Shown here piece by piece: positions 10,945 through 26,223 of a stretch of DNA of 64,000 nt (within the stretch, counting starts at the first letter, position 1; the number at the start of each line of letters is the position of its first letter). The notes beneath the pieces were generated by a model. The model saw nothing but the letters and a program-made list of their open reading frames with translations, was not told the origin of the DNA and did no database searches. Origin of the DNA: Parahaliea mediterranea (GTDB lineage Bacteria; Pseudomonadota; Gammaproteobacteria; Pseudomonadales; Halieaceae). The position numbers and the translations under genes were made by a program. The stretch is from contig NZ_QEWO01000004.1 of NCBI RefSeq assembly GCF_003402235.1, positions 62,001 to 126,000 of the forward strand. Reading direction: 5' to 3'.

Positions 10945-11362
10945 ACTCTTTCTCCCAGGGCTGTTCAGGCCCAGTCAAAACGCCCCGACGCGTTACCCTC
11001 GCCGGTAGCCGTTTCATCGCAACTGTGTGGAGAAGCCTGGAAAGCACCTGGACCGGTGCCCGGCTGGCTACGCCACTCCCTGAACGAGCGAGACACAACG
11101 GCGGTTCGTAACCTGCCCGCCTTCGGCTGGCGCCCAAGGTGGCACTCCTCGAAGGCTCTTTTCACAGTGTGCGGGTGAAAAGCGATCACGAACCCGTGTA
11201 TCGGTCGCCCTGCGGGGTAGCGCAGTGTCTGGCCCCCAGCGCAGCCCATGCGGCCACACTGGATAACGGGACTCACCACCAGCTGCGCGCAAATCATCGC
11301 ATCGCGGCAGTAGGCCAGGGGCTGAGGGTACTCAGCAGTAGCCGTTACCAAAGGTGAGACAG
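10945..11362 (-). ncRNA. Structured 5' leader of ilvI, probable attenuator region
   Basis: About 418 nt between the predicted transcription start and the ilvI GTG carries no convincing gene but several inverted repeats on the minus strand. 11119-11156 is a nested stem (GCCTTCG with CGAAGGC enclosing GTGCC with GGCGC). 11044-11059 pairs GCACC with GGTGC and is followed by TTT. 10977-10994 pairs AACGC with GCGTT and is followed by TT, ending 33 nt before ilvI. The last resembles a weak attenuator, and a weak TACC/GGTA stem at 10994-11007 abuts it. An open frame (11351-10965) includes the branched-chain-rich run QLVVSPVI but looks too long for a classic leader peptide. A structured ilvB-associated RNA class has been proposed for oligotrophic marine gammaproteobacteria; whether this matches is untested. 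Confidence 0.45.
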
Positions 11363-11368
11363 GCGCGT

Positions 11369-11397
11369 ATTCTTGGTTTACTGCGGCCGTCTGTCAA
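11369..11397 (-). promoter_or_regulatory. Candidate sigma-70 promoter of ilvIH
   Basis: The minus strand reads TTGACA (perfect -35, 11397-11392), a 17-base spacer, then AAGAAT (4 of 6 to the -10 consensus, 11374-11369). It is correctly oriented for ilvI and gives a start near 11362. Confidence 0.6.
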
Positions 11398-11556
11398 CCC
11401 AAACGTGATTTTTGCCCAGCACCGCAACCCGCTTGGCGGGGCTGTCACAGATATCATAAGATAAGCCGTCATTAGAAAGGCAGCGGTTCTTATGCGGCAT
11501 TGGCGGCCAATCTGCTTACAACAGCCTTCTTATCATAACCAGCAGATAGGCTCGTG

Positions 11557-12576
11557 ATGCCGACCCAAAGTGGCATGCAGCCCCTGGACCTGATTTCCAT
11601 CATCCTCCCCTGCTTTGACGAAGAAGCCGTTTTGCCGGCGACGCTGGAACGCCTGGACGCGCTGAGCATCGCCCAGAAGGATTGTGATTTCGAGTTCATT
11701 TTCATTGACGACGGCTCAACGGATGGCACCAATAACCTCCTACACGCTGCGGCAAGGCGCGATGATCGCTTGCGCCTTATCACCCTGTCGCGAAATTTCG
11801 GGCAGCAGATTGCGACAACTGCCGGCATCGATCTTGCCAACGGTGGTGCCGTCGTTCTCATGGACTGCGATTTGCAGGATCCGCCCGAACTGGTAACACA
11901 AATGATCGCCCGCTGGCGTGAAGGTTACGATGTCGTTTACGGCACAAGAGCGTCGCGCGAGGGTGAGAGCTGGTTCAAGCGCAGTACTGCCCGCGGTTTT
12001 AACCAGGTAATCAACCGGCTGTCTGAAGTGCCCATACCGGCAGACAGCGGCGACTTCCGGCTCATGAGCCGTAAGGTCGTGGATGTCCTCAAGCAGATGC
12101 CCGAACGGCATCGATTCCTGCGCGGCATGGTTGCCTGGTCGGGGTTTCGGCAAACATCACTGCCCTACGACAGACCCGGGCGCCTCGCCGGCACCACCAA
12201 ATATCCCCTGCGCAAAATGCTGCGTTTGGCACTGGACGGCCTGCTGTCCTTTTCCACTAAACCCCTGCAGGCCTCGATTTTTCTCGGCCTGTTGACGGCA
12301 GGCCTGGCGGTTCTGGGGATTTTCTACGCGCTGTTTATGCGCCTGTTCACGTCTGCGTGGGTGGAAGGCTGGACAGCACTGATGATCGCCATTTTGTTCA
12401 TCGGTGGTGTCCAGTTGGTGTCGCTGGGGATTATCGGAGAGTATATCGGGCGCATCTACGCCGAGGTGCAGCGAAGACCCCTGTACATCGTTCGCGATAT
12501 GGTCGGCTTTGAACGACATGCAGAGGCCGATGCCGGTGTGCATGAAACTCAGCGTGACAGCACCCGGATCCCGTGA
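11557..12576 (+). CDS. Glycosyltransferase family 2, polyprenyl-phosphate sugar synthase type (DPM1/GtrB-like)
   Basis: A 339-residue GT-A enzyme with two C-terminal membrane helices. The nucleotide-sugar site is seen in ISIILPCFDEE, the Asp51-Asp52 pair of FIDDGSTDGT and Asp103/Asp105 of LMDCDLQDPP. The family's DSGDFRLMSRKV motif follows, then hydrophobic segments at about 235-265 and 275-300. Relatives transfer one sugar from a nucleotide donor to undecaprenyl or dolichyl phosphate at the inner face of the membrane, providing donors for GT-C enzymes. GTG at 11554 directly precedes the chosen ATG. It is the first of four coupled genes; its stop overlaps the next start. Sugar specificity is unknown. 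Confidence 0.88.
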   Translation: MPTQSGMQPLDLISIILPCFDEEAVLPATLERLDALSIAQKDCDFEFIFIDDGSTDGTNNLLHAAARRDDRLRLITLSRNFGQQIATTAGIDLANGGAVVLMDCDLQDPPELVTQMIARWREGYDVVYGTRASREGESWFKRSTARGFNQVINRLSEVPIPADSGDFRLMSRKVVDVLKQMPERHRFLRGMVAWSGFRQTSLPYDRPGRLAGTTKYPLRKMLRLALDGLLSFSTKPLQASIFLGLLTAGLAVLGIFYALFMRLFTSAWVEGWTALMIAILFIGGVQLVSLGIIGEYIGRIYAEVQRRPLYIVRDMVGFERHAEADAGVHETQRDSTRIP

Positions 12577-13565
12577 AGCCTAGGCTGCAGCTATTGGCCG
12601 GCCTGGGTTTGGCCGGTTTCTTTCTCTGGTTGACACTGCGCGGCGTGGATCGCACCAGCGTATTGCAACTAGTCGCCCAGGGTTTCTCCGTGGCCTGGCT
12701 GGCCCTGGCACTGGGCTTTCTTGCCCTCGGATATAGCTGCCGGATTTTGCGCTGGCGGCGGATGCTGCAGCCCCTCAATCCAGACTTGGGCATGATGCAC
12801 TGCGGCATTCCCTTGCTGGCCTCGATGGCGGTGAACAACCTCCTGCCACTGCGGGCCGGGGACATGCTGCGCTGCTTCGGGTTCTCAAACTGGTTACAGG
12901 TCCCGTCGGGAGCGGTGCTGGCGACGGTCCTGGTCGAGCGCGCGCTGGACATGGTTGTCGTTATCCTCGCTCTCGGGCTTGCACTCAGGTTCTTTTCGCT
13001 GGGGGGCGGTGCGTTGGGTATGGTGCAATACAGTGGCATACTGCTGTTTGCCTTGGCCGCCATATCGCTTTTGCTACTGCTACGCCCCGCGTTGCTGGCC
13101 CCGGTTCTGGCCAGGCTGACACGCCTTGCCGGGATTTTGGGGCCCGATCGACAGGCGCGGGTTGAAAACCATTGTCAACCACTGCTTGATACGCTGATCA
13201 GGCTTTCAAATCGCGGTGCCATGCCCTGCCTTATGGGGTATTCAGTACTGGCCTGGCTGTTCGAAGGCGCCAGCTACTGGGCGATTGCCCGCTCCCTGTC
13301 GACACTCCCCCTACCCGAAGCCGCCTGGCTCGCCATGCCGGTTGGCACCCTTGCGACACTGTTACCCTCTTCGCCCGGCCATGTCGGCACCTTCGATTAC
13401 TTCGCCCAGTTGGCTACGGTGGCGGTCGGTAATCCGCTGGCGGAAGCGACCGCCTATGTGCTGGTGGTGCATGTGGCGCTGTGGCTGCCCACAACCCTGA
13501 TCGGAGCGATCTGTCTGCTGATCTGGGTGTGGCGGGGAGCCGCCGCCGGTAACAACCAACGATGA
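12573..13565 (+). CDS. Lysylphosphatidylglycerol-synthase-like transmembrane protein (UPF0104, putative flippase)
   Basis: A 330-residue multi-spanning inner-membrane protein with about eight helices. It has the LPG_synthase_TM signature: an N-terminal hydrophobic pair, RILRWRRML, VNNLLPLRAGDMLR, then VERALDMVVVI. The soluble synthetase domain of true MprF is absent. Stand-alone members often sit beside GT2 polyprenyl-phosphate transferases and are thought to move lipid-linked sugars across the membrane (inference for this copy). The GTG start overlaps the TGA of the GT2 gene by four bases, which indicates translational coupling. Confidence 0.85.
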   Translation: MKPRLQLLAGLGLAGFFLWLTLRGVDRTSVLQLVAQGFSVAWLALALGFLALGYSCRILRWRRMLQPLNPDLGMMHCGIPLLASMAVNNLLPLRAGDMLRCFGFSNWLQVPSGAVLATVLVERALDMVVVILALGLALRFFSLGGGALGMVQYSGILLFALAAISLLLLLRPALLAPVLARLTRLAGILGPDRQARVENHCQPLLDTLIRLSNRGAMPCLMGYSVLAWLFEGASYWAIARSLSTLPLPEAAWLAMPVGTLATLLPSSPGHVGTFDYFAQLATVAVGNPLAEATAYVLVVHVALWLPTTLIGAICLLIWVWRGAAAGNNQR

Positions 13566-14881
13566 AGCCCAGCGTCGCTGTCATCGGTTCCGGCTTCACT
13601 GGGCTGGCCGCCGCCCGCGATCTGGCCCGCGCGGGTCATCCGGTCACGGTCATTGAAGCGGATGGTCATGTGGGCGGCCTCGCGGGAGCATTTCAGCCGG
13701 ACGAAAACGTGGAGGCGGAACCGCTCGATCGCTTTTACCACCACTGGTTCACCTCCGATCTGGAAGTGATGGCATTGATCAGGGAACTGGGCCTGGAGGA
13801 TGCGGTTGCCACCGAGGCCAGCCTCACAGGCGTTTACTACAACCGTCGCATCACGCGCTTGTCCACCCCCCTTGACCTGCTGCGTTTTACCGCACTGCCG
13901 CCACTGGATCGCCTGCGGCTCGGATGGCTCGCCCTGCGCGCCCGCCGGGTCAAGGACTGGCGCCCTCTGGAGCATCTCACCGCCGCTCAATGGTTGCGCT
14001 CCATGGCCGGAGAGCGGGTATATCGCGTGATGTGGGAGCCCTTGTTGCAAGGTAAATTCGGCCGCCACGCCGACGCTATCTCGGCCGTCTGGATATGGAA
14101 CAAACTGAAGCTGCGCGGCGGGTCGCGAGCCAAGAGCGGTGCAGAGCAGTTGGTTTATGTTCGCGGCTCCTTTGCACGACTGGCCGAGGCCATTTGCGCG
14201 GACATTCAGGCACATGGCGGCAGGGTCAAAACCCATTCCGCCGCCACTGAGCTGATCCCGCTGGCGCGCGGCGGCTGGGAGATCCGTGGCCCATGGGGCA
14301 GCGAGCGGGCCGCGCGGGTGATCGCCACCACCGCTCCCCCAATCCTGGCTGATCTGATCGACGGCTGGGCCGCACCACACACGCTGGCCTCCCTGCGACG
14401 CATCAACTACCTCGCCAATATTTGCCTCGTTCTGGTACTCGACCGCTCGCTTTCATCGACCTATTGGTTGAATGTGAACGACCCAGGATTTCCCTTCGTC
14501 GGCGTTATCGAACACACTCGCTTCCAATCACCCGCGCACTATGGCGGGCGGCACATCGTCTATCTTTCCCGCTATCTGCCGCAGGATGACCCGCTTCTCG
14601 ACCTGTGCGCTGATGATTTTCTCCACTTCGCCATCCCGCATGTGCAACGCATGTTCCCTGCGTTCGACCAGCGCTGGATACAAAGGCATCATGTCTGGCG
14701 CGCCCTCTGGGCACAGCCGATCGTCGAACGGCATTATTCGCAGTTCATTCCCCCGGTGGAAGGGCTGGCACCTGACCTCTACCTTTGCTCCATGGCGCAG
14801 ATATACCCCGAGGATCGCGGCACAAATTATGCCATCCGCGCGGGTCGCGACCTGGCCGCGCGACTGATTGCCGGGGGCTGA
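13562..14881 (+). CDS. NAD(P)/FAD-dependent oxidoreductase, protoporphyrinogen oxidase/amine oxidase-like
   Basis: A 439-residue flavoprotein. The dinucleotide-binding motif Gly9-x-Gly11-x-x-Gly14 in VIGSGFTGLAAARDL is followed by the acidic strand end VIEADGHVGG. The C-terminal FAD-contact segment reads MAQIYPEDRGTNYAIRAGRD. It belongs to the broad amine oxidase/phytoene desaturase/UDP-galactopyranose mutase superfamily; the substrate is not known. In this cluster a polyprenyl-linked or nucleotide sugar is a reasonable guess. No membrane helix is apparent. Start and preceding stop overlap as ATGA, so it is coupled with the flippase-like gene. Confidence 0.8.
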   Translation: MKPSVAVIGSGFTGLAAARDLARAGHPVTVIEADGHVGGLAGAFQPDENVEAEPLDRFYHHWFTSDLEVMALIRELGLEDAVATEASLTGVYYNRRITRLSTPLDLLRFTALPPLDRLRLGWLALRARRVKDWRPLEHLTAAQWLRSMAGERVYRVMWEPLLQGKFGRHADAISAVWIWNKLKLRGGSRAKSGAEQLVYVRGSFARLAEAICADIQAHGGRVKTHSAATELIPLARGGWEIRGPWGSERAARVIATTAPPILADLIDGWAAPHTLASLRRINYLANICLVLVLDRSLSSTYWLNVNDPGFPFVGVIEHTRFQSPAHYGGRHIVYLSRYLPQDDPLLDLCADDFLHFAIPHVQRMFPAFDQRWIQRHHVWRALWAQPIVERHYSQFIPPVEGLAPDLYLCSMAQIYPEDRGTNYAIRAGRDLAARLIAGG

Positions 14882-14884
14882 AGC

Positions 14885-16165
14885 GTGGCGGCAAAACCCT
14901 TTGTGATGGCCCTGGATCGCGGCCTGACCCGCGCGGCGACCCAGCAGGAGCTTTGGCTGGCGCGTTTTACCGGGGCGGCACCCGAAGCTGGGGAGCTACC
15001 CCTCGACAGCAAGGTTGTCACGCTCGCCCAACAGGCTGCATCACAGGGGCGGCCCCTGTATCTGCTGGCTGAAAACCCGCATCTGGCAAGAGCTCTACTG
15101 GAAAGAGCCCAACTTGACGCGTGCGTCATCGATCTCAACGGTCTGCGGGGTGACTCCCGGCTCAAGAGCCTAAGGCGCCTTATCGGCGACGACGCGTTTG
15201 AATTTGCTGGCGCCGCCCCCCTCGACCAGCCCATCCGCAGGGCGGCCGGGGTAGACGATCCAGTGACACGGTTACTGCGGGTCGACACCGTCCTGGGGCT
15301 GTGGCGCAGCTTGCGGCCGCATCACTGGATAAAGAATCTGCTGATTTTTCTGCCCCTGCTCGCGGCGCAGAAGTGGCAGGAATCGTCTGCCCTGGCCCAA
15401 GCATCGGCCGCTTTCGGGGTTTTCTGCCTGACCTGTTCAGCCATCTATATCGTCAACGATCTTTTCGATCTGCGGGATGACCGGCGCCACCCCCACAAAC
15501 GATACCGCCCCCTGGCCGCTGGCCAGCTAAAACCCGCCACTGCCCTGCTGGCCGCCTTACTGCTGCTAGGTACTGGCATCGCCTTGGCTGGGCTGTGGAT
15601 ACCTTCGGGCCATTTTCTTGCCCTGACCCTGACTTACGCGGTGGTGGCACTGCTTTACTCGCGCTGGCTTAAAACGCTGCGCTTCATCGATCTGTTCAGT
15701 CTCGGCGCCCTGTACACGCTGCGCGTGGCCGCTGGGGCTGCTGCCATCCATATATGGCCATCGTTCTGGCTGCTCGCCCTGTGCCTTTGTCTTTTTACGT
15801 CGCTGGCCTGCGCCAAGCGCGCGGCAGAGCTGGTGCAAGCACAGAAGAACGGTTTGCAGGGGATTTCTCGGCGTCGCTACCAACTACAGGATTTAAAAGC
15901 GATAAGGGCACTCGGTGCATTGACTGCCACCGGAGCCTGCGCCGTGTTGATTATCTATACATCCGAGAAAGCGCCCAAACTGTACGCCAATCCGTACGCG
16001 GTTGGGCTTGCGGCGCTCCCGCTGATGCTCTGGGTGGTGCATATCTGGCAAAAAGCGACCGCCGGACAAATCCGTGAGGACCCTGTCCTTTTCGCACTGC
16101 GGGACGCAAAGAGCTGGCTGCTACTGGCAGTACTTCTTTTGATGTTTGTCCTGGCGCAGCCCTGA
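14885..16165 (+). CDS. UbiA family prenyltransferase with degenerate N-terminal HAD-like domain
   Basis: A 426-residue protein. From about residue 145 it is a UbiA membrane enzyme: RPHHWIKNLLIFLPLLA opens the domain, and the Mg-diphosphate motif Asn191-Asp192-x-x-Asp195 (VNDLFDLRDD) is intact, followed by seven or more helices. The RPHHWIKN opening resembles decaprenyl-phosphate phosphoribosyltransferases, which make polyprenyl-phosphate pentoses. Residues 1-140 line up with the HAD phosphatase fused to many such enzymes, but the expected DxDGT nucleophile motif reads MALDRGLTRA, so phosphatase activity is probably lost. GTG 14885 starts three bases after the preceding stop. Product specificity is inferred only. 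Confidence 0.82.
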   Translation: MAAKPFVMALDRGLTRAATQQELWLARFTGAAPEAGELPLDSKVVTLAQQAASQGRPLYLLAENPHLARALLERAQLDACVIDLNGLRGDSRLKSLRRLIGDDAFEFAGAAPLDQPIRRAAGVDDPVTRLLRVDTVLGLWRSLRPHHWIKNLLIFLPLLAAQKWQESSALAQASAAFGVFCLTCSAIYIVNDLFDLRDDRRHPHKRYRPLAAGQLKPATALLAALLLLGTGIALAGLWIPSGHFLALTLTYAVVALLYSRWLKTLRFIDLFSLGALYTLRVAAGAAAIHIWPSFWLLALCLCLFTSLACAKRAAELVQAQKNGLQGISRRRYQLQDLKAIRALGALTATGACAVLIIYTSEKAPKLYANPYAVGLAALPLMLWVVHIWQKATAGQIREDPVLFALRDAKSWLLLAVLLLMFVLAQP

Positions 16166-16167
16166 AC

Positions 16168-16422
16168 TCAGTCGACGTTGGTGCTACGGCGCCGTGCCAA
16201 ATACAACAGCCCAGTAAAGGCCAGAAATGCGACCATCAAAAGCCATGGCGACGAACCCGCCGACAGAACCGGTACATCCACGGGGGTGACCGCCGCGGGC
16301 GGGATGCTCGGTGTCGGCAGAGGTCCGGTTGGCGTGGGACCCTGCGCCAGTACAGTAGAGCTTAGAGCGGCCAGGCCCACCCCCAAAAACCACTGCTGTG
16401 CCCTTCTAAGATAGTTCCCCAT
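16168..16422 (-). CDS. Small exported protein with IPTL-CTERM-like tail
   Basis: An 84-residue protein convergent with the UbiA gene and 87 bp downstream of the DUF2298 gene. It has a signal peptide (residues 1-26, cleavage after LAQ), a short Pro/Thr-rich linker (GPTPTGPLPTPSIPP), then VPVLSAGSSPW, a hydrophobic helix and ARRRST at the end. That C-terminus matches the layout of IPTL-CTERM sorting signals (I/VPTLS, helix, basic cluster), which exosortase-like proteases are thought to process. ATG 16422 has GGAG nine bases upstream; a GTG just before it is less likely. No exosortase is in the window, and function is unknown. Confidence 0.65.
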   Translation of the reverse strand: MGNYLRRAQQWFLGVGLAALSSTVLAQGPTPTGPLPTPSIPPAAVTPVDVPVLSAGSSPWLLMVAFLAFTGLLYLARRRSTNVD

Positions 16423-16509
16423 CACTGATCACTCCGATAACAAAGTAATGACACCCAAGCCTATCAACCTTCCCCACCCTCTGGCAACGGCTCTGGGGGC
16501 ACTTGCCAA

Positions 16510-18495
16510 TCAACGGCAAATGTCCGGTTCAATCCGGACAATGCTTCCACCGCTACCTGTATAGACCTCCGAGCCAAGGGCAGCAATGGCATTGCCCTGC
16601 AATTTCGGGTAACGCCGCCGTTCCACCTGACCCACAATGGCATAGCGGATGTTATACCTTCGGACAATACGACAACGCAAGACCGGATCTTCAGTGCTAT
16701 AAAACAACTCTACATGGCGCGCACGAGCATTGGCCGCTTCGCCATCTCCGCGCCACAGCCATTCATGTGCCGCCCAGCCGACGACGGCAGGCAGACCGGT
16801 CATCGCGGAAGCACGCGCTGTCTCCCCAAAGGCCTCGCCGCTGGCCTCGACCAACGATTCACCCAGCGCCAGATCGAGCTGGCTGACTGCTTCGACCAGT
16901 TCACGCTCATCGCCAAGATAACCGTAACCGTCAAGACCGCGAATCAACCCCGGTGGACTATAAATATGCGCGGCATAGACCAGCGTCGCCATCAAGGGCG
17001 CGGCAGCAATCATCGCACCCATCATCCACACCCCGCCGCGCACCACCGCCGGCGCCAGCACCGCGAAACCCGCGATAATGATCAACTGCTGGGCCCGAAA
17101 ACTCAGCTTGAACATGGTGTTGGCACGGGCGTACTCCAACTCATAGATATCGCGCATGATAACGATTTCGGGGAGGGCTATCAGGAACAGCGCGGCCACC
17201 AACAGGGTCGCGCTGAGAATCTGTGGATCACCCAGGCGCCATACACCCAACAACAGCAGCCCGACCAACGGCAGGGCATGACCGTAAACCGCCAGTAGCT
17301 GCCAGGCCGGAGTGTGCGCTGGCGCCAACTCAACACCACTGGCAAATGGCACAAAGCTGCCCATGAAGGGGGCAGCCGTAAGAAAGGCCGTCGCCACGGT
17401 AACGAGCGCCGCTGCCCCCCATTGATCAAGGCACTGCCACATGGGGGAAGGCTGTCGCGCGACAAGCAGCAATGCAGCGATCAGCGAGATCATTCCGAGG
17501 ATCGCCACGTCCCAGGAATTGATGCCCATGCAAAGCCCGAGAATCCAGCCAAGCACAACAAGCGAGATGGTATCCGGGGGCGCCCCCGACAGACCGCGTC
17601 GGATGATCGTCACTATCACCAGCATGGCGAGAAGAAAAACCGGTGTTGCCACTACATGCGCATGTAAATCTCCCGCGGCAAAGGCATAGGCGGTGAATTC
17701 GGTAAACCCCTTGTCAGCCGCGGGTGGATCAAAGCCAATGAAACGCGTTGAGTCCGGGAAATAAAAATCCACCTTCGCTGTCGGCATGACATCGCGAAAT
17801 AGCGTGTAGAGGACCGAGTGGAAGTTGCCGCCATACAGCGTAACCAGAGCGGCGGCACCGCCGAGAACCCAGCCAATACTGTCGCCACGTGGCTGCACCA
17901 ACGCCACCGTTAGCCGCCAGGTGGCAAGGCCGGTCAGCCCGAATAAACCGGCCATGGCTATCTGATAGGTCGCCGCGGGGGAAGCGCCCATGATATGGCC
18001 CCAGGCAGCAGTCATGGCCTGACCGAGATAGTAGTAATTGATCGTAGCGCCTGCATACCATGCGTCCTGTGGAGGCATGAAATCACTGCGCATCGCTGCG
18101 GCGAGGAAGGCCATGTCAGTGAATTTTTCCAACCCCAAAAGATCGGCGCGCGCCAGCCGCTGGGCGAGGCCAAACCAGAACAACGTGGCAAAAGACAGCG
18201 CAGCAACCAGTCCTCCACGGCTATCTGCCGATGGCGCGGGCAGCAGAAGGCGCGCCGCAACCAACAGCACCAGGCCCGACAGGGAAACGGCAGGAAAGGG
18301 CAAAATCCCCAGGGCCGAGATCAACCAGGGAAACCAGCCAATGAATGACCATGCCAGCAGGATCGCCACCACCCAACCGCCACCGCCCGGCACCAGGCGC
18401 AGGGCGAGCGGTCTCGCGGCCCAGGCGCCGATGGCCAGCACGATCATGTAACGCAGTACCAGCACCATCTCTGCCGGAGGCAGGCTGCCGATCAT
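16510..18495 (-). CDS. DUF2298 (YYY-type) polytopic membrane protein, probable GT-C-like glycosyltransferase
   Basis: A 661-residue membrane protein with about a dozen helices. The family's signature loops are clear: LGLEKFTDMAFLAAAMRSDF, DAWYAGATINYYYLGQ near residue 157, and later YELEYARANTMFKLSFRAQQ. DUF2298 proteins occur mainly in Chloroflexi, Cyanobacteria and archaea, often beside GT39/PMT proteins, and are regarded as GT-C-fold enzymes without an assigned reaction. Its ATG overlaps the stop of the upstream GT39 gene (ATGA), so the two are coupled. Occurrence in a gammaproteobacterium suggests horizontal acquisition of the cluster (inference). Confidence 0.85.
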   Translation of the reverse strand: MIGSLPPAEMVLVLRYMIVLAIGAWAARPLALRLVPGGGGWVVAILLAWSFIGWFPWLISALGILPFPAVSLSGLVLLVAARLLLPAPSADSRGGLVAALSFATLFWFGLAQRLARADLLGLEKFTDMAFLAAAMRSDFMPPQDAWYAGATINYYYLGQAMTAAWGHIMGASPAATYQIAMAGLFGLTGLATWRLTVALVQPRGDSIGWVLGGAAALVTLYGGNFHSVLYTLFRDVMPTAKVDFYFPDSTRFIGFDPPAADKGFTEFTAYAFAAGDLHAHVVATPVFLLAMLVIVTIIRRGLSGAPPDTISLVVLGWILGLCMGINSWDVAILGMISLIAALLLVARQPSPMWQCLDQWGAAALVTVATAFLTAAPFMGSFVPFASGVELAPAHTPAWQLLAVYGHALPLVGLLLLGVWRLGDPQILSATLLVAALFLIALPEIVIMRDIYELEYARANTMFKLSFRAQQLIIIAGFAVLAPAVVRGGVWMMGAMIAAAPLMATLVYAAHIYSPPGLIRGLDGYGYLGDERELVEAVSQLDLALGESLVEASGEAFGETARASAMTGLPAVVGWAAHEWLWRGDGEAANARARHVELFYSTEDPVLRCRIVRRYNIRYAIVGQVERRRYPKLQGNAIAALGSEVYTGSGGSIVRIEPDICR

Positions 18496-20174
18496 GGCAG
18501 GCGTCTCAGCTTGGACGCGAGCGCAGGGGGCTGACAGGCGGCGGGATCCGCGGTCTGTTGCAGAAGAGTCACAAGCGCCTCCTCTGAAAGCCGAGCTTCA
18601 TTGCGCCACAGGATCACTTCGGGCCGGTCAAAAACCTGCCGCGTTTCCTCCCAGCCGAGCCCGGGGGCAAACAGGGCACCAAACATACTTCGGCGCTCGA
18701 ACCTCAGCGCTGGCGCAAAACCCAGTTCGCCGTCCGCCAATGCTGCGTAATAGCTGCATATCACGGGGGCGGATTGACGCAAGCGGGGCAGCACCGCCCA
18801 GTTGCGACGACTGGCGATCAGCAGCCATCCAGCCCGCGATAGAGGTTCAGCCAGCGCACGGGGCGATATCTCCGCCGCGGTAAGGGGGAGTGTCAGGACA
18901 GCCATATCAGCGGTCTGCGCCAGATCATGCGGTTCGATGGCAACGACCTCGTTGGGCAGTGCGCGCGCCAGCAAGGCGCTCTCTGCCAGGATGCGTGCAT
19001 CGCGACTCCAGTAGATCGACGCCTGGTCGATGCCGGCCATGAGTATCAGTCCCAGGGCGCAGCAGCCCAGCCCACGGACAGTTTGACTGCGGGGATGTTG
19101 AACACATCTCCCCAGTGCCGTAGCAGCCAGCAACAGCAGTATGGGTACAATTGGAGCGAGGTAGCGGAAAAATTTTGCTTCCCACCCAACAACAATCGCG
19201 GCGTAGCAGGCAGCGAAGGCCAGCCCGGGGGCTGTGTACCGCCACCCCCGTTGCGACATCCCCAACAGGCCCAGCAGCGCCAGGGGCAAACCGACCCAGG
19301 CCAACGACGAAGCGAGTTGTGTCAATTCAAACCCGCCCGCCGATACCCCTTCAAATTGCGCAACCCAGAACGCCGGCTGCGTGCCCGTCACAATGGCGCT
19401 TTCGTGTCGCATAACGGCCAGCCACTCATCGGTCGCCAGCCACAGCGATGGCGCAGACAACAGGGCAAGCCCCGCCGTCAGCAGCACGCCGGCTGCCACC
19501 AGCCGCCACCGAGCGCGATCGACCCGCCCCCCCAGCACCAGAGCTGCCAGTGGAATGATTGACAGCATGATCGCCGTGGTCTTGAAGCCAAAGCCAATCC
19601 CCAGAAGGGACGCCGACCAGAGCATCATGCGACGATCCGTGATCTGGCCGGCCAGCCAGCGCGCCGCGACAAGCCATAACACCATAACCAGCAGCACCAA
19701 CACGGATTCGGTGGTACCGAAATGCGCCCATTGCACCAGTGGTGCAGAACCGGCAAAGGCCGCTGCCGCCACCAGCCCCGCGACCTGACCTGTGATCAGT
19801 CGCGCCAGGGCGGCCGCAACGGGGATAGTCGCCACCGACACCAGGGCCGATAGCCAGCGAGCACTAAGGGTCAGGCAAGCCTGGTCGGCGCTGTCGCAAA
19901 AGGGCAGCGACAACAAGCGCGGCAACCAGAGTGCCAGGTCGTTGTAAGCGTGAAAGGAGGGGATGACCGATCCCGCAGGCCACAGTTCCAGCGCAGCCCT
20001 GACCAGGTTGCCCTCATCAGGGTGCAGTCCACGCCCCTCATCCCAATTCAGCCCGATCAGCCGCAACATCAATCCGAACAGCGTCAGGGCGATCAGGAAA
20101 CACTGATAGCGCGTGTTATTCAAAGTACTCAGATCCCGACTCTGGCGGGCACAAACAAGAGCAGCGGAACACAC
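18492..20174 (-). CDS. Glycosyltransferase family 39 (PMT_2-type) membrane protein
   Basis: A 560-residue GT-C-type enzyme. The first outer loop carries the acidic catalytic motif in LNWDEGRGLHPDEGN; the next helices contain AALARLITGQVAGLVAAAAF and similar hydrophobic repeats, and a soluble C-terminal part begins around residue 400. Relatives use polyprenyl-phosphate sugars made by GT2 enzymes as donors and act on the periplasmic side. The longest start is GTG 20174, and a TTG 16 codons later would be nearer the conserved sequence, so the start is uncertain. It is coupled to the DUF2298 gene downstream. Confidence 0.82.
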   Translation of the reverse strand: MCSAALVCARQSRDLSTLNNTRYQCFLIALTLFGLMLRLIGLNWDEGRGLHPDEGNLVRAALELWPAGSVIPSFHAYNDLALWLPRLLSLPFCDSADQACLTLSARWLSALVSVATIPVAAALARLITGQVAGLVAAAAFAGSAPLVQWAHFGTTESVLVLLVMVLWLVAARWLAGQITDRRMMLWSASLLGIGFGFKTTAIMLSIIPLAALVLGGRVDRARWRLVAAGVLLTAGLALLSAPSLWLATDEWLAVMRHESAIVTGTQPAFWVAQFEGVSAGGFELTQLASSLAWVGLPLALLGLLGMSQRGWRYTAPGLAFAACYAAIVVGWEAKFFRYLAPIVPILLLLAATALGRCVQHPRSQTVRGLGCCALGLILMAGIDQASIYWSRDARILAESALLARALPNEVVAIEPHDLAQTADMAVLTLPLTAAEISPRALAEPLSRAGWLLIASRRNWAVLPRLRQSAPVICSYYAALADGELGFAPALRFERRSMFGALFAPGLGWEETRQVFDRPEVILWRNEARLSEEALVTLLQQTADPAACQPPALASKLRRLP

Positions 20175-20371
20175 ATAAGAAAGATGCCAGCGCGTTTTGC
20201 ACCCAGCGGAAGCTCATTCACACACGTCTGATTATTTCGCTATCCTAGCATGAAAGAAGGTACTGGCAATCTAACCCGGCGCCAGCACACGGAGTGCGAT
20301 CCAACTGGCAGGCTTTACAGGATCGGGAAGAGGCAGCGGAAGACAGGTCAGACAATTTGAACGAGGATCAT

Positions 20372-21532
20372 ATGCGACGGGGGGTTCTGTTGTGCCTTTG
20401 CTATTACCTGCCGAATATCTCGGGCCTGACTCTCGCGGCACGGGAACAGGCTCGCTTTCTGTCGAGCAAGGGATACCCGGTACAGGTACTGACATCGCGC
20501 GCCCCGGGACAAGCTGCCTGCGAGACCCAGGGTGAAATCCAGATCAACCGCAGTTACACACCAGGCCGGCTGGGCAAGGCGCCCATCATGCCGTTCCTCG
20601 CCCGTGACGCCTGGCTGGCGACAAAAGATGTCAGCGTTGTTGTGATCCATTTACCCCACCCGAATGCCGCGATTCTGACCCTTATCTCTCGCCTGCGAGG
20701 GCGCCAGGTTTTGCTGCACTATCACTGCTCCCTCTCACGCAAGGGGTTGGCGGCGCAGGTATTGAGAGTTCTGACGGCCGTCCCGCATATTCTGGCGGGA
20801 TGGCTGGCTGGGAAGGTGCAGGTGGTGTCGGAGGACTATGCCCGCCAGTCGGTTTTTTGCCGCCTCTTCTGGCACAAGTTACGATTTGCCCCTCCGCCCG
20901 TTCCGGCCGATTTTCTGGAACCTGTCGAGGCACCTGCAACCCGGCATGCCCCACTACGTGTCGGTTTTGTCGGCAGGCTTGCCCGACAAAAAAACCTGCC
21001 GCTGCTATTTCTGGCCTTTCGTCAACTGTGCCAGCGGATGACTCAGCCGGTTGTGCTCGAACTGGTCGGGCCAAGTGACCATGTCATAGGGGAGGCGGGC
21101 GTATCCTCACTGTTATCCATGGCAGAAGCTCTCGGTTGCGACATCCGGTATCGCGGCGTGCTACCGGACCAATCCTTGCGTCATTTTTACCGGGAAACAG
21201 ACCTGCTGGTGCTGCCGAGTTCTGATCGTCAGGAATCCTTCGGACTGGTTCAGGTGGAGGCCATGGTGCAGGGCGTTCCCGTGGTCGCGCTGGATCTGCC
21301 CGGCATACGGGAACCGATCAGACAAACTGGTATGGGCTTACTGGTGGCGACCCATTCTGCGACAGCACTGTGTCAGGCCATGCTAACGGTATTGACCGAG
21401 GGACCACCACAGCGCCTACCCCCAGAGGAGATCAGGCGATTGTTCGCGGCAGAGGTCAGTTGCGCACCGATTTTGCAGCTTCTTGCATCCGATCAATCCC
21501 CGGCTAGCGCGGATTTGAGAAACTCGGCATAG
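20372..21532 (+). CDS. Glycosyltransferase family 4 (GT-B)
   Basis: A 386-residue cytoplasmic or membrane-attached glycosyltransferase. The acceptor half begins CLCYYLPNISGLTLAAREQA, and the donor half has GFVGRLARQKNLP and the EX7E motif ESFGLVQVE near residue 288, followed by AMVQGVPVVALD. Retaining GT4 enzymes transfer a sugar from a nucleotide donor, commonly in lipopolysaccharide or exopolysaccharide assembly. ATG 20372 is preceded by GAGGA; an upstream in-frame GTG at 20294 lacks a ribosome site. The 3' end overlaps the convergent GT39 gene by 40 bp. Confidence 0.85.
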   Translation: MRRGVLLCLCYYLPNISGLTLAAREQARFLSSKGYPVQVLTSRAPGQAACETQGEIQINRSYTPGRLGKAPIMPFLARDAWLATKDVSVVVIHLPHPNAAILTLISRLRGRQVLLHYHCSLSRKGLAAQVLRVLTAVPHILAGWLAGKVQVVSEDYARQSVFCRLFWHKLRFAPPPVPADFLEPVEAPATRHAPLRVGFVGRLARQKNLPLLFLAFRQLCQRMTQPVVLELVGPSDHVIGEAGVSSLLSMAEALGCDIRYRGVLPDQSLRHFYRETDLLVLPSSDRQESFGLVQVEAMVQGVPVVALDLPGIREPIRQTGMGLLVATHSATALCQAMLTVLTEGPPQRLPPEEIRRLFAAEVSCAPILQLLASDQSPASADLRNSA

Positions 21533-23238
21533 ACCAGCGGATCGTAGCAGGAGTCGCGACGGAAAATCCTGACCTGTGGATGGTCGTAAATACGCCAGGG
21601 TTCTTGCGACCAGGCATCCCGAAAAGGCAAGCCCGGCAGCGGGTAGCCGCGATCAATGGCCAAGACCAGGGAGAAACAGGCCTCACCCGAGAACAAGGCC
21701 CGATAGTGTGCTGCGGTCATGGGGAAGCGCTCTGGCAGACGCGGCATGACAGCAAACTGACGCTCGGACGACAGTATCAAAAAATCGGTCCGCGCTAGCA
21801 GCTCCGCCATCCGCTGCGCCTTTTCCGGGCCGTCGGGGTCGGTGATTCCCAAAGTCTGCAAAACAAACCAGTCGTCATGTGAAGGCCAGCGATAGGGCTC
21901 CCCCGGCGCGGGCGCGATGATCGCGGGCAGGGGCTCGTCCCAGATGGTTTCGTTGGTCAGAACGGTTCCCCTCGGCAGCGCCCACAGCCAATGCGACGCT
22001 ACAACCCGTGGATGCTGGCCATCGTGCAGCCGAACGACGCCGCCCCCCCACCAGAGCGCACCAGCCAGCGCCATGTAGCTGGCGTACAGGCCAAGTCGCG
22101 GCGGCGCCATTGCCAGTAGCATCGCCATGGGCGCCAGGGCGGGCGCGACATACCGCAACAGGCTGCCGTTATTCACCGTAACGGGGATCAGGAAAAAGGC
22201 CGCAAAAGCGGTCAGGGGAATCGCGGCGGCGGGTGAACAGAGGGTGGGGCGCGCCATCAGCATCAACAGCAATCCCACAGCCACCGGCCCGCTGCCGAAC
22301 AGGGCAAAGTCGCGCAGAAAGGACATGGGGCCATAGCCCGCACTCCATTGCCATCCAGGCGGAAAATCGCTTGCCGTCGCCATGGCCATCAGGGACGAAA
22401 AATCCCCCAGCCAATCCCGCGATGGCCAAAGCCCCCAAACACCGGGCCCCTCAAATGCAAACGGATTGATCAGCCGGAAGCAGATCATGGCAAGCGTCAG
22501 CATCACCGCGCCCGCGGCCAGTGTTTTGTGGATGCTCAAGCCGCCCCGATAGGCCAGTAGCAGTGCGACTGCCCCGGGTAATGCCAGTACTGCCCCGGTG
22601 ATTTTAACGGCCAACGCCAGGCCGCCACCGACGCCGGCCAGTGCGGCCATGGCCAGAGGGCCGACCCCGCCAGTGCGCCCACTAGCCAGCGCCATCAACG
22701 GCACCGTTGACAGGGCGCAGGCTGTTGTCATCCAGACATCGACGGTATAGAAATTGGCCAGCTGCAATGCACTGGGCATGGCGGCGTAAAGGGTCGCGGC
22801 AAACAGTCCCGCCGCGTTCCCTCCCACGAACCGCGCTCCGATAAACACCATCAAAACGCTCAGGGTATCCATGGCCACCGATAGGCAGCGCGCCAGTGCC
22901 ATGAAGGCAAATCCATCGGTAATACCCAGCATCTGTCCGACCAGCACACCAGCTAGCAGTGGCGCCTCGCCATAGACATAGAAGGTGTCACCCAGATGGG
23001 GATTTAGCGGTGAGCTTTCCGAGAACCACCAGTCCGACAGACTCAGCCCACTGTTGGCCGGATCAGACAGTGCACCGAGCATCGCCTGCGCGAGCAAGAA
23101 CATATGCCGCTCATCGGCATGCAACCCGGCATAATCATCCCAGGTGATGCCCATGAGCCGCAGCTGGGCGGCCAGTGCCAGCACCATGATCAGCGCCAGA
23201 GCGGTCTGCCCCCGGTTGTTATCGAAGGTGAAGCGCAT
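21493..23238 (-). CDS. Second glycosyltransferase family 39-like membrane protein
   Basis: A 581-residue protein built like the other GT39 in the cluster: an N-terminal helix, then the acidic loop WDDYAGLHADERHMF, a row of hydrophobic helices, and a periplasmic C-terminal part with tyrosine- and proline-rich segments. The two GT39 proteins share layout but are clearly divergent copies. It probably uses a polyprenyl-linked sugar donor; the acceptor is unknown. The ATG at 23238 has no obvious ribosome site. The 3' end overlaps the GT4 gene on the opposite strand. Confidence 0.8.
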   Translation of the reverse strand: MRFTFDNNRGQTALALIMVLALAAQLRLMGITWDDYAGLHADERHMFLLAQAMLGALSDPANSGLSLSDWWFSESSPLNPHLGDTFYVYGEAPLLAGVLVGQMLGITDGFAFMALARCLSVAMDTLSVLMVFIGARFVGGNAAGLFAATLYAAMPSALQLANFYTVDVWMTTACALSTVPLMALASGRTGGVGPLAMAALAGVGGGLALAVKITGAVLALPGAVALLLAYRGGLSIHKTLAAGAVMLTLAMICFRLINPFAFEGPGVWGLWPSRDWLGDFSSLMAMATASDFPPGWQWSAGYGPMSFLRDFALFGSGPVAVGLLLMLMARPTLCSPAAAIPLTAFAAFFLIPVTVNNGSLLRYVAPALAPMAMLLAMAPPRLGLYASYMALAGALWWGGGVVRLHDGQHPRVVASHWLWALPRGTVLTNETIWDEPLPAIIAPAPGEPYRWPSHDDWFVLQTLGITDPDGPEKAQRMAELLARTDFLILSSERQFAVMPRLPERFPMTAAHYRALFSGEACFSLVLAIDRGYPLPGLPFRDAWSQEPWRIYDHPQVRIFRRDSCYDPLVYAEFLKSALAGD

Positions 23239-23485
23239 GCGTATTGCCAGATGCTCTAGTGGAGATCAAAAATCACTGCCTGCCCAGACACTGGATGTGC
23301 CAGGTCGCGGTACTCAAGATCGGCGAACTGAATGCCCGCTTGCACTGACGGTATATAAACACGCCGCGGTCACAATGAGAATAACCAGCCGGGATTGGCC
23401 GCGAGCCAGGGAATAGCAACTGCGTTGCGCCTTCTCGGCGCTTACGCTACTTTACGGGCAAAACAGCCAGCAAAAAGGCACATAC

Positions 23486-23989: not shown

Positions 23990-25084
23990 TTACTGCTTCG
24001 TCGTCGTCTCGCCGCCGGCAATCAGGTAGGGATAGCCCTGGTTCATCCAGCCAAAAATGCCTTCATAGAGCACCGCTGTGCGGGTGTAGCCCAGCTCTCC
24101 AAGCTGCTTGACCACGTAGTCTGCCGCCGCACGCGGACAGGCGCAGTAGGCAACAATCATCACGTCTTTAGGCAGGTCCTGGGTCTTGTCTTCCAGTTCG
24201 CTGTAATACGGGAAGGGAATGGAGCCGGCGATATGGGCGCGCTGCCAGGCCGATACCGCACGGGTATCCAGCAGGATCATTCTCTTGTTGGCCTGCAGGG
24301 CCTCGAACAGGGATTCCGATGACACATACTGCCCGTCCATCAGTTCGAAATCGGGGTCTTCACCCTGGGGATTTAGCACGTACTCATCGGGCGTTGGCAG
24401 GGCCTGCAGCACGGTTTTCTCCGGCGCCAGTTCAGCGGCCCAGCTGCGGATAAACGCGGTAACGTTGTCGATATCGGCAGCCGACAGTTGCGTGCCAAAG
24501 GAAGGCATCGGCGTGCCCTCACGCCCGAACTCAATCGCATAGCGAATAAATTCATCCGTGTTGTGCGCCAGCGCCGAGGCATTGCTCAACGCAGGCGCGG
24601 TAACCCCCTCGCCCCCGCTACCGTGGCAGGTGGCGCAATGCTGGGCATACACCGACTTGCCCTGCTGGGCATCGCCAGCCACCGGCTCCCGGGACAGCTT
24701 GAGGGGATGGTCCAGGCCCGACTGCTGGAACAGCCAGTAGGTCAGGTGCTTAATTTGCTCAAGCGTCATCGGCCCGCCCACTTCGTCCAGATAACCGGCC
24801 ATCGGTGTGCCCAGGCGGCCATAGGAAATGGGCAATGCCAAGCCCATGGGCACACCGGTAGCCATGAGGCTAGGGCTGCGCAGCGAGGGGGCATGGTCAT
24901 TAACATGGCCCTGGCGATCCGCTCCGTGGCAGAGGGCGCAGTATTTCTGGTAGTTGGCGGCAGCTTCGTCTGCCTGTTCCTCGGTGAGCGCTTTCGGCGG
25001 CTCCGCCTGCTCGTAGATACGCTCGGCGAATGCGGGCAGTGCACTCATCGCCATCATTAACGGTATGACAATCCATTGCATCAT
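23990..25084 (-). CDS. Dihaem cytochrome c fused to a rhodanese domain, exported
   Basis: A 364-residue fusion. After a signal peptide (MMQWIVIPLMMAMSALPAFA) come two class I cytochrome c modules with haem sites Cys50-x-x-Cys53-His54 (YCALCHGADR) and HCATCHGSGG around residue 150. The C-terminal third is a rhodanese: MILLDTRAVSAWQRAHIAGS, the active-site loop VAYCACPRAAADYV with its cysteine, then GYTRTAVLYEGIFGWMNQGYP. The product should carry electrons and handle sulfane sulfur in the periplasm. ATG 25084 has AGGAG nine bases upstream; an in-frame TTG at 25105 is less likely. Neighbouring genes give no sulfur-oxidation context. Confidence 0.87.
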   Translation of the reverse strand: MMQWIVIPLMMAMSALPAFAERIYEQAEPPKALTEEQADEAAANYQKYCALCHGADRQGHVNDHAPSLRSPSLMATGVPMGLALPISYGRLGTPMAGYLDEVGGPMTLEQIKHLTYWLFQQSGLDHPLKLSREPVAGDAQQGKSVYAQHCATCHGSGGEGVTAPALSNASALAHNTDEFIRYAIEFGREGTPMPSFGTQLSAADIDNVTAFIRSWAAELAPEKTVLQALPTPDEYVLNPQGEDPDFELMDGQYVSSESLFEALQANKRMILLDTRAVSAWQRAHIAGSIPFPYYSELEDKTQDLPKDVMIVAYCACPRAAADYVVKQLGELGYTRTAVLYEGIFGWMNQGYPYLIAGGETTTKQ

Positions 25085-25191
25085 AGTCCTACGCTCCTGT
25101 AGCAACCTGTTGCCTAACGATATACAGGAAAATGCGGGTCAGTCTCAAGCGTCTTGATGTTGCGCGGCAATTGCCCGTTGTTCACTCCGGC

Positions 25192-26223
25192 TCATTTACA
25201 CGGCCGCACGACAGGTACATAACCTTGAATTTTCACGAGTTGCAGGTCAACCGGCCTATGATCGCCACGCCCCTCTGGCGTGAGGACTGCGCTGCCGGCG
25301 CCGCGCCAGCTTGCGGTGTAGCGATGCCCACCTTCAATAAAACTGAGGTGGCGCCCATCAATCGCCTGAACGACCGCGCCCTTCACGGGGATGCGATAGG
25401 AATCACAGTGTCGCTCTACAAAGATAGTGTCTTGGCGTTGACTGTTCCGGGAATCAACCACCCGCCACATACCGAGCCAAATATCAGCCTCTGCCTCTGC
25501 CTCTGCTGTTGCCTGGGGCCGCGCGGGCAACTGCGAGACGCTACCGACTGGCAAGCAGGCCGAATCACTGAATAGCTGAAACAGCGTGGCCCCCGCCGTC
25601 ACTGCCAGGCCCAAGGCCAGCCAATGCAGCCGGCCGGATTCAAGCACGCCCGCCAGGAGTTGGTCGCCAGCGAGCAGCAGGTGCATCCAAGGTGCCGCCA
25701 TCAGGCCTGCCAAACCGCCGATGGGAAACAGATACATCAGCTTTCGGCGCTCCTGCGGCGGTATTATGATGCCGGCCTGCTGTAGGCGTTCAGCAATTTG
25801 ATCGTGAATCTCGGCGGGCTTGACGCCCAGGCGACTAAGCTCCTTTTGCAAGACCAGAAGCTCATTGACCAACGGGCAAAAGTCCGCCGCCTGATATTGA
25901 AGAAGTAAGTCGGTGGGGGGAGTGTTGTCGGCAAGTATCGGGATCAACGGTCGATCCGGGTACCTGACGTGAAAGTATTCGATTTCGCGACGTACCCAGT
26001 CTGAGCGCGATGCACTGTGCGTCCAGTAAACCAACAGATGATCCGCGACATCAAGGCCTCGCCGGAGCCCGGCCCGCCATTGAACGCCAGGCTTCAGCGA
26101 TCGATGATCGATAAATACTTGATTGCCAAGCGCCTCCAGCAGCAGGCCAAGACCGGTGACAGCCCGGCGATCAGCACTGCTGTAGGAACAGAATACAGTA
26201 GGGCGGTGCCCGGAATCGTTCAT
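25192..26223 (-). CDS. Membrane-anchored TIR-domain protein
   Basis: A 343-residue protein in three parts. Residues 8-130 form a TIR domain: TVFCSYSSADRRAV, VFIDHRSLKPGVQW, VYWTHSASRSDWVRREIEYF and PLIPILAD. Glu80 in WVRREIE is where NAD-cleaving TIRs carry their catalytic glutamate. Two hydrophobic segments (about 160-215) follow, then an Ala/Glu repeat (AEAEAEAD) and a beta-rich C-terminal region containing GMWRVVD that I do not recognise. Bacterial TIR proteins often act in antiviral abortive defence by consuming NAD. No partner defence gene is adjacent; it stands alone, just downstream of clpB on the same strand. Role is inference. Confidence 0.75.
   Translation of the reverse strand: MNDSGHRPTVFCSYSSADRRAVTGLGLLLEALGNQVFIDHRSLKPGVQWRAGLRRGLDVADHLLVYWTHSASRSDWVRREIEYFHVRYPDRPLIPILADNTPPTDLLLQYQAADFCPLVNELLVLQKELSRLGVKPAEIHDQIAERLQQAGIIIPPQERRKLMYLFPIGGLAGLMAAPWMHLLLAGDQLLAGVLESGRLHWLALGLAVTAGATLFQLFSDSACLPVGSVSQLPARPQATAEAEAEADIWLGMWRVVDSRNSQRQDTIFVERHCDSYRIPVKGAVVQAIDGRHLSFIEGGHRYTASWRGAGSAVLTPEGRGDHRPVDLQLVKIQGYVPVVRPCK

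Follow-up and report, generated by a model that had tools for sequence, protein, structure and literature searches.

An apparently acquired 12-kb island of Parahaliea mediterranea carrying a candidate extracytoplasmic protein O-glycosylation module

In bacterial protein sorting, PEP-CTERM targets pair with exosortases and IPTL-CTERM targets with XrtH, and exosortase targets are suspected to be glycosylated surface proteins. PgfS belongs to streptococcal protein glycosylation, in which the target is a protein. PMC11127046 describes a HAD-UbiA fusion that makes polyprenyl-phosphate ribofuranose and whose UbiA part needs N247, D248, D251, and D255, while the D18A exchange in the HAD part (ORF15) leaves mainly the 5-phosphate with a little dephosphorylated product. 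Here we analysed a gene cluster in a 64,000-nt stretch of Parahaliea mediterranea (NZ_QEWO01000004.1, 62,001-126,000, forward strand; hereafter the window, to which coordinates refer). Among known kinds it comes nearest to periplasmic glycosylation of the Gtr and three-component types, here joined to exosortase-type sorting. The finding is real, a mobile unit with a candidate acceptor, and the genes suggest, with a probability of about 0.5 in our estimate, a horizontally acquired and self-contained module for extracytoplasmic protein O-glycosylation.

Separate blastn comparisons of the two window flanks with a same-genus genome (L132, ilvI 96% identical) delimited the insertion. The alignment stopped at window position 11,417 (L132 position 574) and restarted at 23,420 (L132 position 582), with about 12.0 kb missing from L132 and 7 bases in place. 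In L133-L136, four other members of the family, 126-217 bases separate the ilvI-side alignment end from the start of the DUF4124 gene of the flank. Together, the L132 junction and this DUF4124 spacing indicate that the site is empty in all five relatives fetched. The nine cluster genes have a third-position G+C of 0.64-0.73, compared with 0.86 in ilvI and 0.83 in clpB, and DUF2298 was found in one of 97 genomes searched, the present one. No direct repeat of at least 10 bp common to both boundary regions (260 and 250 bp) was seen, and there is no integrase among the nine genes. The 12-kb island seems to have been acquired from a distant relative.

To the eight genes named by an initial annotation, all of which proved to be open reading frames in the places assigned and in agreeing Pfam families (GT39B alone under the PMT_2 cut-off), we add a ninth that it had missed, encoding an 84-residue protein (Table 1). 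The coupling it had noticed, of four plus-strand genes and of DUF2298 with a GT39 gene on the minus strand, is borne out. The GT2 and flippase-like genes, and the latter and the FAD (flavin adenine dinucleotide) protein gene, overlap by 4 bp, a 3-bp gap leads from FAD to UbiA, and the DUF2298 and GT39A frames overlap. Such tightness suggests two transcription units, GT2-flippase-FAD-UbiA and GT39A-DUF2298. Against NCBIfam, the GT2 protein reached 288 bits with PgfS (NF047588, cut-off 500) and 176 bits with the ArnC type (NF007986, cut-off 529), both under threshold.

The FAD alignment, scanned against genomes of bacteria and archaea, returned at least 510 relatives, from the best 80 of which neighbourhoods were taken (up to 10 kb per side of the FAD gene; several end at contig edges), so the counts reflect near kin of the FAD protein. 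In the alignment, 13 of the 80 frames had been dropped (internal stop, unclear start, or cut end) and 53 of the other 67 were aligned with the window protein; the L044 frame is interrupted by an internal stop. GT2 was present in 70 of the 80 loci (weak matches of 28-42% included), the flippase-like gene in 57, DUF2298 in 13, GT4 in 6, GT39A and GT39B in 5 each, and UbiA in 3. These counts mark GT2-flippase-FAD as the general unit and UbiA, DUF2298, and GT39 as additions, and UbiA is thus not the integral member that the initial annotation had made of it. By source label, the relatives include alpha-, beta-, and gammaproteobacteria, Nitrospira, Gemmatimonadetes, Acidobacteria, Bacteroidetes, cyanobacteria, Verrucomicrobia, and Actinobacteria.

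DUF2298 is 50-63% identical in five of its 13 loci and 21-26% identical in the other eight; the DUF2298 model drew on 12 of these loci (L061 omitted), which supplied 13 proteins, together with the window protein. DUF2298, GT39A, and GT39B occur together in L041, L042, L043, L049, and L051, all of which we take from source labels or known taxonomy to be Rhodobacteraceae, the GT39B copies being 41-61% identical. This sharing in five of 80 FAD loci, at 41-63% identity over the three genes, means that the clustering is not chance and confirms the linkage in other genomes that had been proposed as a check. The window's copy probably derives from the Rhodobacteraceae side.

Several relatives carry other genes beside the FAD gene. 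Ten of the 80 loci have a nucleotidyltransferase-like family upstream of the flippase-FAD pair; a single member from outside the 80 was tested (genome G024; L024 5332-6108, minus strand) and scored as glucose-1-phosphate cytidylyltransferase (397 bits over 300), and CDP-glucose may feed some of the GT2 enzymes. Large membrane proteins are encoded directly or soon after the FAD gene in L103 (11323-13263, plus), L104 (11407-13365, plus), and L083 (11369-12934, plus), and are possibly further GT-C enzymes; DUF7024 was matched in L103 (31.4 bits, over 24.4), under the cut-off in L104 (16.7), and not in L083. In distant gammaproteobacteria (L026, L029, L035, L036, and others), UbiA, DprE1-like, DprE2-like, and epimerase-like genes and a FAD relative are grouped, an arabinose-type cluster there retaining the extra epimerase-like gene and the FAD protein.

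The candidate acceptor lies next to DUF2298, whose structure model resembles GT-C enzymes, predicting a GT-C membrane fold, with a C-terminal part like the globular domain of oligosaccharyltransferase. By eye, the 84-residue protein has an apparent signal peptide and a short Pro/Thr stretch, followed by VDVPVLSAGSSPWLLMVAFLAFTGLLYLARRR. At the equivalent place and on the same strand before DUF2298, L041, L042, L043, and L049 encode proteins of 131, 163, 246, and 256 residues that consist mostly of PT/TP repeats and end in VPVxPGxGGPGGxxPWLL...WARR; their tails share 58, 44, 47, and 51% identity, respectively, with that of the window protein. A tblastn search with the L041 tail matched the window (1.7e-7) and L049 (2e-4) but not L042 and L043 at 1e-3, and the window tail as query found itself alone among the loci at 1e-3. 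A tail profile matched the island protein alone (1.4e-17, by construction; next 0.13), and the protein is not among the genome's six IPTL-CTERM matches.

Different repeat proteins accompany DUF2298 elsewhere. In L051, a protein that reads as TadE-like and ends in WPTPTPG repeats lies about 10 bp before the called GT2 start, and in L064 two PT-repeat proteins with a CxxCH motif adjoin DUF2298; L085, without DUF2298, has PT repeats in a kinase-like protein. Overall, repeat proteins occur in 6 of the 13 loci with DUF2298 versus 1 of the 67 without it (p 3.7e-5; counting the four related loci once, 0.006). That the same transferases have different repeat proteins as neighbours speaks for the repeats as the acceptor.

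In L041, L042, L043, and L049, an exosortase-like protein and a barrel protein are encoded between GT39A and GT39B. The former scored 28.8-29.6 bits with TIGR04178 (over 23; L042, L043, and L049 scanned) and 24.1-38.9 bits with exosortase H (TIGR04177), under the cut-off of 86, and had no Pfam match at E 1; C75, R118, and H137 are invariant in all four copies, as in exosortases and archaeosortases. The barrel protein passed the cut-off of Autotransporter beta-domain in L042, L043, and L049, the three loci scanned, and was found by tblastn in the fourth. A motif scan of the 80 loci found the exosortase pattern in these four only, and it was not found in the window; L051 had no match to either protein. 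The host genome does encode exosortase H (222 bits, cut-off 86) and the membrane protein that partners it (153 bits, cut-off 35). Exosortase H passes its cut-off in 11 of 14 family genomes examined, host included, and the host has four IPTL-CTERM tails over cut-off compared with none in 14 control genomes. A profile of the four cluster exosortases matched host exosortase H at 3e-9 as a remote relative; at 1e-8 it hit 2 of 398 sampled phylum genomes (the host and G367), and no more module copies were found. Plasmid searches gave no match for the exosortase and one each for DUF2298 (27%, Pseudobutyrivibrio) and FAD (49%, Embleya). Since target, exosortase-like protein, and glycosyltransferases lie together, the link between exosortases and glycosylation becomes testable in a single cluster.

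UbiA appears to be an accessory. Its best models were PRK08238 (316 bits, cut-off 351) and the decaprenyl-phosphate phosphoribosyltransferase model PRK12324 (138 bits, cut-off 234), so the likeness to decaprenyl-phosphate phosphoribose enzymes first noted stands as to best models but falls short of the cut-off. Likewise, the RPHHWIKN sequence, at residues 144-151, opens the UbiA domain and not, as read initially, the protein, which starts with a shortened HAD-like stretch. There, DLDGTL is replaced by ALDRGL (TLEGGL in L049) but kept in L026, L027, L030, and L036, and the L026 protein with an intact HAD part scored 660 bits with PRK08238. A phosphatase function of the HAD part was rejected because the catalytic Asp of loop I is lost, and with this nucleophile replaced the product of the island UbiA is predicted to remain mostly ribose 5-phosphate, barring another phosphatase. 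The NDxxDxxxD motif is intact, N191, D192, D195, and D199 being invariant in seven aligned UbiA proteins as in the metal-binding site of polyprenyl-phosphate phosphoribose synthase (PPPRS), with the spacing of N247/D248/D251/D255 in PMC11127046. Neither L042 nor L043 gave a UbiA match, and in L041 only a fragment is left (11340-12667) beside apparent transposase remains, indicating that it is dispensable; the host genome has three other UbiA-family genes. A menaquinone or haem identity of UbiA and FAD, named at the outset as what would speak against the proposal, did not emerge and was rejected on model scores. UbiA reached 32.6 bits with haem o synthase (TIGR01473, cut-off 210.3) and 19.4 with the 4-hydroxybenzoate model (TIGR01474, cut-off 275.45), with no menaquinone model among its 15 matches, and FAD 26.8 bits with protoporphyrinogen oxidase (TIGR00562, cut-off 97.85).

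From these families we propose that GT2 would load a hexose onto polyprenyl phosphate at the cytoplasmic side, that the FAD protein, judging from its linkage to GT2, may modify the lipid-linked sugar or the lipid before export, and that the LPG_synthase_TM protein would flip the product. DUF2298, for which the modelled GT-C fold speaks, and the two GT39-like proteins, judged by family, could then transfer the sugar(s) outside the membrane to the small Pro/Thr-rich protein between UbiA and DUF2298, a putatively glycosylated target with signal peptide and sorting tail. In the four Rhodobacteraceae copies the tail would be processed by the dedicated exosortase-like protein, with the barrel protein alongside, and in the present host possibly by its own exosortase H instead. 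The accessory UbiA, which has its metal-binding residues and a characterised relative, may put ribose 5-phosphate from phosphoribosyl pyrophosphate on polyprenyl phosphate.

Table 1. Island and genes in the window (feature, position, strand, basis)
Inserted island	11418..23419		bounds from empty site in same-genus genome (L132)
GT2, polyprenyl-phosphate sugar synthase (PgfS/ArnC-like)	11,557-12,576	+	PF00535 Glycos_transf_2 112 bits
Flippase-like membrane protein	12,573-13,565	+	PF03706 LPG_synthase_TM 127 bits; TIGR00374 56.4 over 43.2
FAD protein, NF005560/PRK07233 family	13,562-14,881	+	477 bits over 252; Pfam Amino_oxidase 91 bits
UbiA-type polyprenyl-phosphate phosphoribosyltransferase, degenerate N-terminal HAD phosphatase domain	14,885-16,165	+	Pfam UbiA 79 bits
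Small secreted Pro/Thr-containing protein, 84 aa, candidate acceptor	16,168-16,422	-	translation
DUF2298, predicted GT-C-fold membrane glycosyltransferase	16,510-18,495	-	PF10060 240 bits; structure model
GT39-like membrane glycosyltransferase A (GT39A)	18,492-20,174	-	PMT_2 32.6 bits over 26.1
GT4 cytoplasmic glycosyltransferase	20,294-21,532	+	PF00534 Glycos_transf_1 90 bits
GT39-like membrane glycosyltransferase B (GT39B)	21,493-23,238	-	PMT_2 24.2 bits, under 26.1; copies in five Rhodobacteraceae loci

Beside the island, two minus-strand frames had no match in the regions of the five relatives (9-10 kb). By reading, one (23990-25105) has two CxxCH cytochrome-like motifs and then a rhodanese-like part, and the other (25192-26223) encodes a TIR-domain-like protein with membrane segments.

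Several observations weigh against a protein acceptor. The Pro/Thr stretch of the small protein in the window is short, with 9 Pro, 4 Thr, and 1 Ser in 26 residues, and the protein failed the Pro/Thr-repeat scan, and passed no sorting-tail model (LPXTG_anchor 13.5 bits, under 15.9). The repeat threshold was chosen after four of the proteins were known, and the absence of repeat proteins from 23 control loci (354 kb) is a weak control because the rate in the 80 loci predicts only about two in that length. A direct protein search of the genome with the cluster exosortase, run without a positive control, was empty at E 0.1. GT-C enzymes modify lipids and polysaccharides too, and 73 of the 80 loci of the GT2-flippase-FAD trio lacked a repeat protein in the scan, so that the trio must serve other acceptors. 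This count also favours a modification of polysaccharide side chains, in which LPS (lipopolysaccharide) O antigen or exopolysaccharide would be decorated in the periplasm, as by Gtr or three-component pentofuranose systems, with the small protein being incidental. Indeed, GT2, flippase, and GT-C form the layout of O-antigen glucosylation, a GT4 is present, and UbiA-type synthases serve O antigens according to PMC11127046. We nevertheless consider such a role somewhat unlikely in view of one insertion holding three proteins of GT-C type along with a secreted protein that has a sorting tail, the differing repeat proteins adjoining DUF2298, and the oligosaccharyltransferase-like part of the latter. 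It is very improbable that the genes form a lipid-linked D-arabinofuranose pathway like that of mycobacteria or of Pseudomonas pilin. UbiA does resemble decaprenyl-phosphate phosphoribosyltransferase, and the cluster copy in L051 has UbiA with DprE1 and DprE2 relatives. However, UbiA lies outside the conserved core and no DprE1 homologue was found at 1e-5 in the host genome, G006, or G024, whereas the same query was positive in 13 of 16 genomes, including its source G314 and weakly G167 (6.6e-6, 85 residues), which makes the mycobacterial arabinose route of the initial annotation unlikely. Within the protein O-glycosylation module that we prefer, we tentatively suggest as a possibility that a DUF2298 GT-C enzyme, a flavoenzyme remodelling a polyprenyl-linked sugar, and a surface protein of Pro/Thr repeats that has a new sorting tail and an exosortase of its own are inherited as one mobile unit, whose repeat acceptors (sorted, pilin-like, or cytochrome-like) are swapped and which may use the exosortase H of a new host.

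As to the chemistry of the FAD protein, its model (pLDDT 93.3) has the amine-oxidase superfamily fold common to phytoene desaturase, protoporphyrinogen oxidase, monoamine oxidase (MAO), and UDP-galactopyranose mutase (UGM). It could be a mutase that contracts a pyranose to a furanose ring on the lipid-linked sugar, as UGM does on UDP-galactose. We consider this unlikely. Structure comparison (Foldseek/VIA) does not single out one chemistry, with phytoene desaturase (35.2), protoporphyrinogen oxidase (33), and MAO (32) equalling or surpassing UGM, and the NCBIfam matches listed, 25 of 61, include no UGM model. Less likely still, the protein might alter the polyprenyl chain by reduction, desaturation, or isomerisation and so mark a dedicated carrier pool. 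The lipid is the common substrate of GT2 and UbiA, two unrelated polyprenyl-phosphate sugar synthases with which FAD co-occurs, and phytoene desaturase, an enzyme of isoprenoids, is among the near folds, but the HpnE score of 87 bits is far under its cut-off of 283. In the PDB, the FAD sequence alone matched nothing at 1e-5, while a 54-sequence profile gave 417 sequences at 0.1, the best being a phytoene dehydrogenase.

Overall, the interpretation of the initial annotation holds in part. The evidence supports linked genes that serve a polyprenyl-linked sugar for use outside the membrane, while the single insertion, the likely acceptor within the set, and the exosortase-like partner in relatives had been missed. 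The unit is undescribed insofar as searches of open-licence PubMed Central papers for it, for DUF2298, and for a lipid-linked mutase yielded no description, although the UbiA step has been characterised elsewhere (PMC11127046). Our analysis proposes a function and an acceptor for DUF2298, and links to polyprenyl-linked sugars a flavoenzyme family that NCBIfam names only 'hypothetical protein' and that occurs with GT2 genes in several phyla.

Among known systems, PgfS provides the best-scoring model for the island GT2, though under cut-off, and we know of no counterpart of FAD, UbiA, or DUF2298 in the PgfS system. PEP-CTERM/IPTL-CTERM sorting shares the secreted target with a C-terminal motif, hydrophobic stretch, and Arg-rich end and the exosortase with Cys, Arg, and His, but here a single target gene lies beside its own exosortase-like gene and its tail motif passes no model searched. 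With the mycobacterial DprE1/DprE2 arabinan donor pathway the UbiA step is alike, whereas DprE1 is missing from the host genome by our search. The three-component pentofuranose system of Citrobacter youngae (ORF15/14/12), as described in PMC11127046, likewise combines a HAD-UbiA polyprenyl phosphoribose synthase, a flippase, and an outside-acting GT-C enzyme; in contrast, the island HAD lacks the catalytic Asp, UbiA is optional, GT2 and FAD form the core, and the acceptor is likely a protein. In the GtrA/GtrB/Gtr glucosylation of O antigen (same source), a GT2 enzyme also makes polyprenyl-phosphate hexose for a flippase and a membrane transferase, while the island has a flippase of the LPG_synthase_TM family, an extra FAD enzyme, and three GT-C-type proteins.

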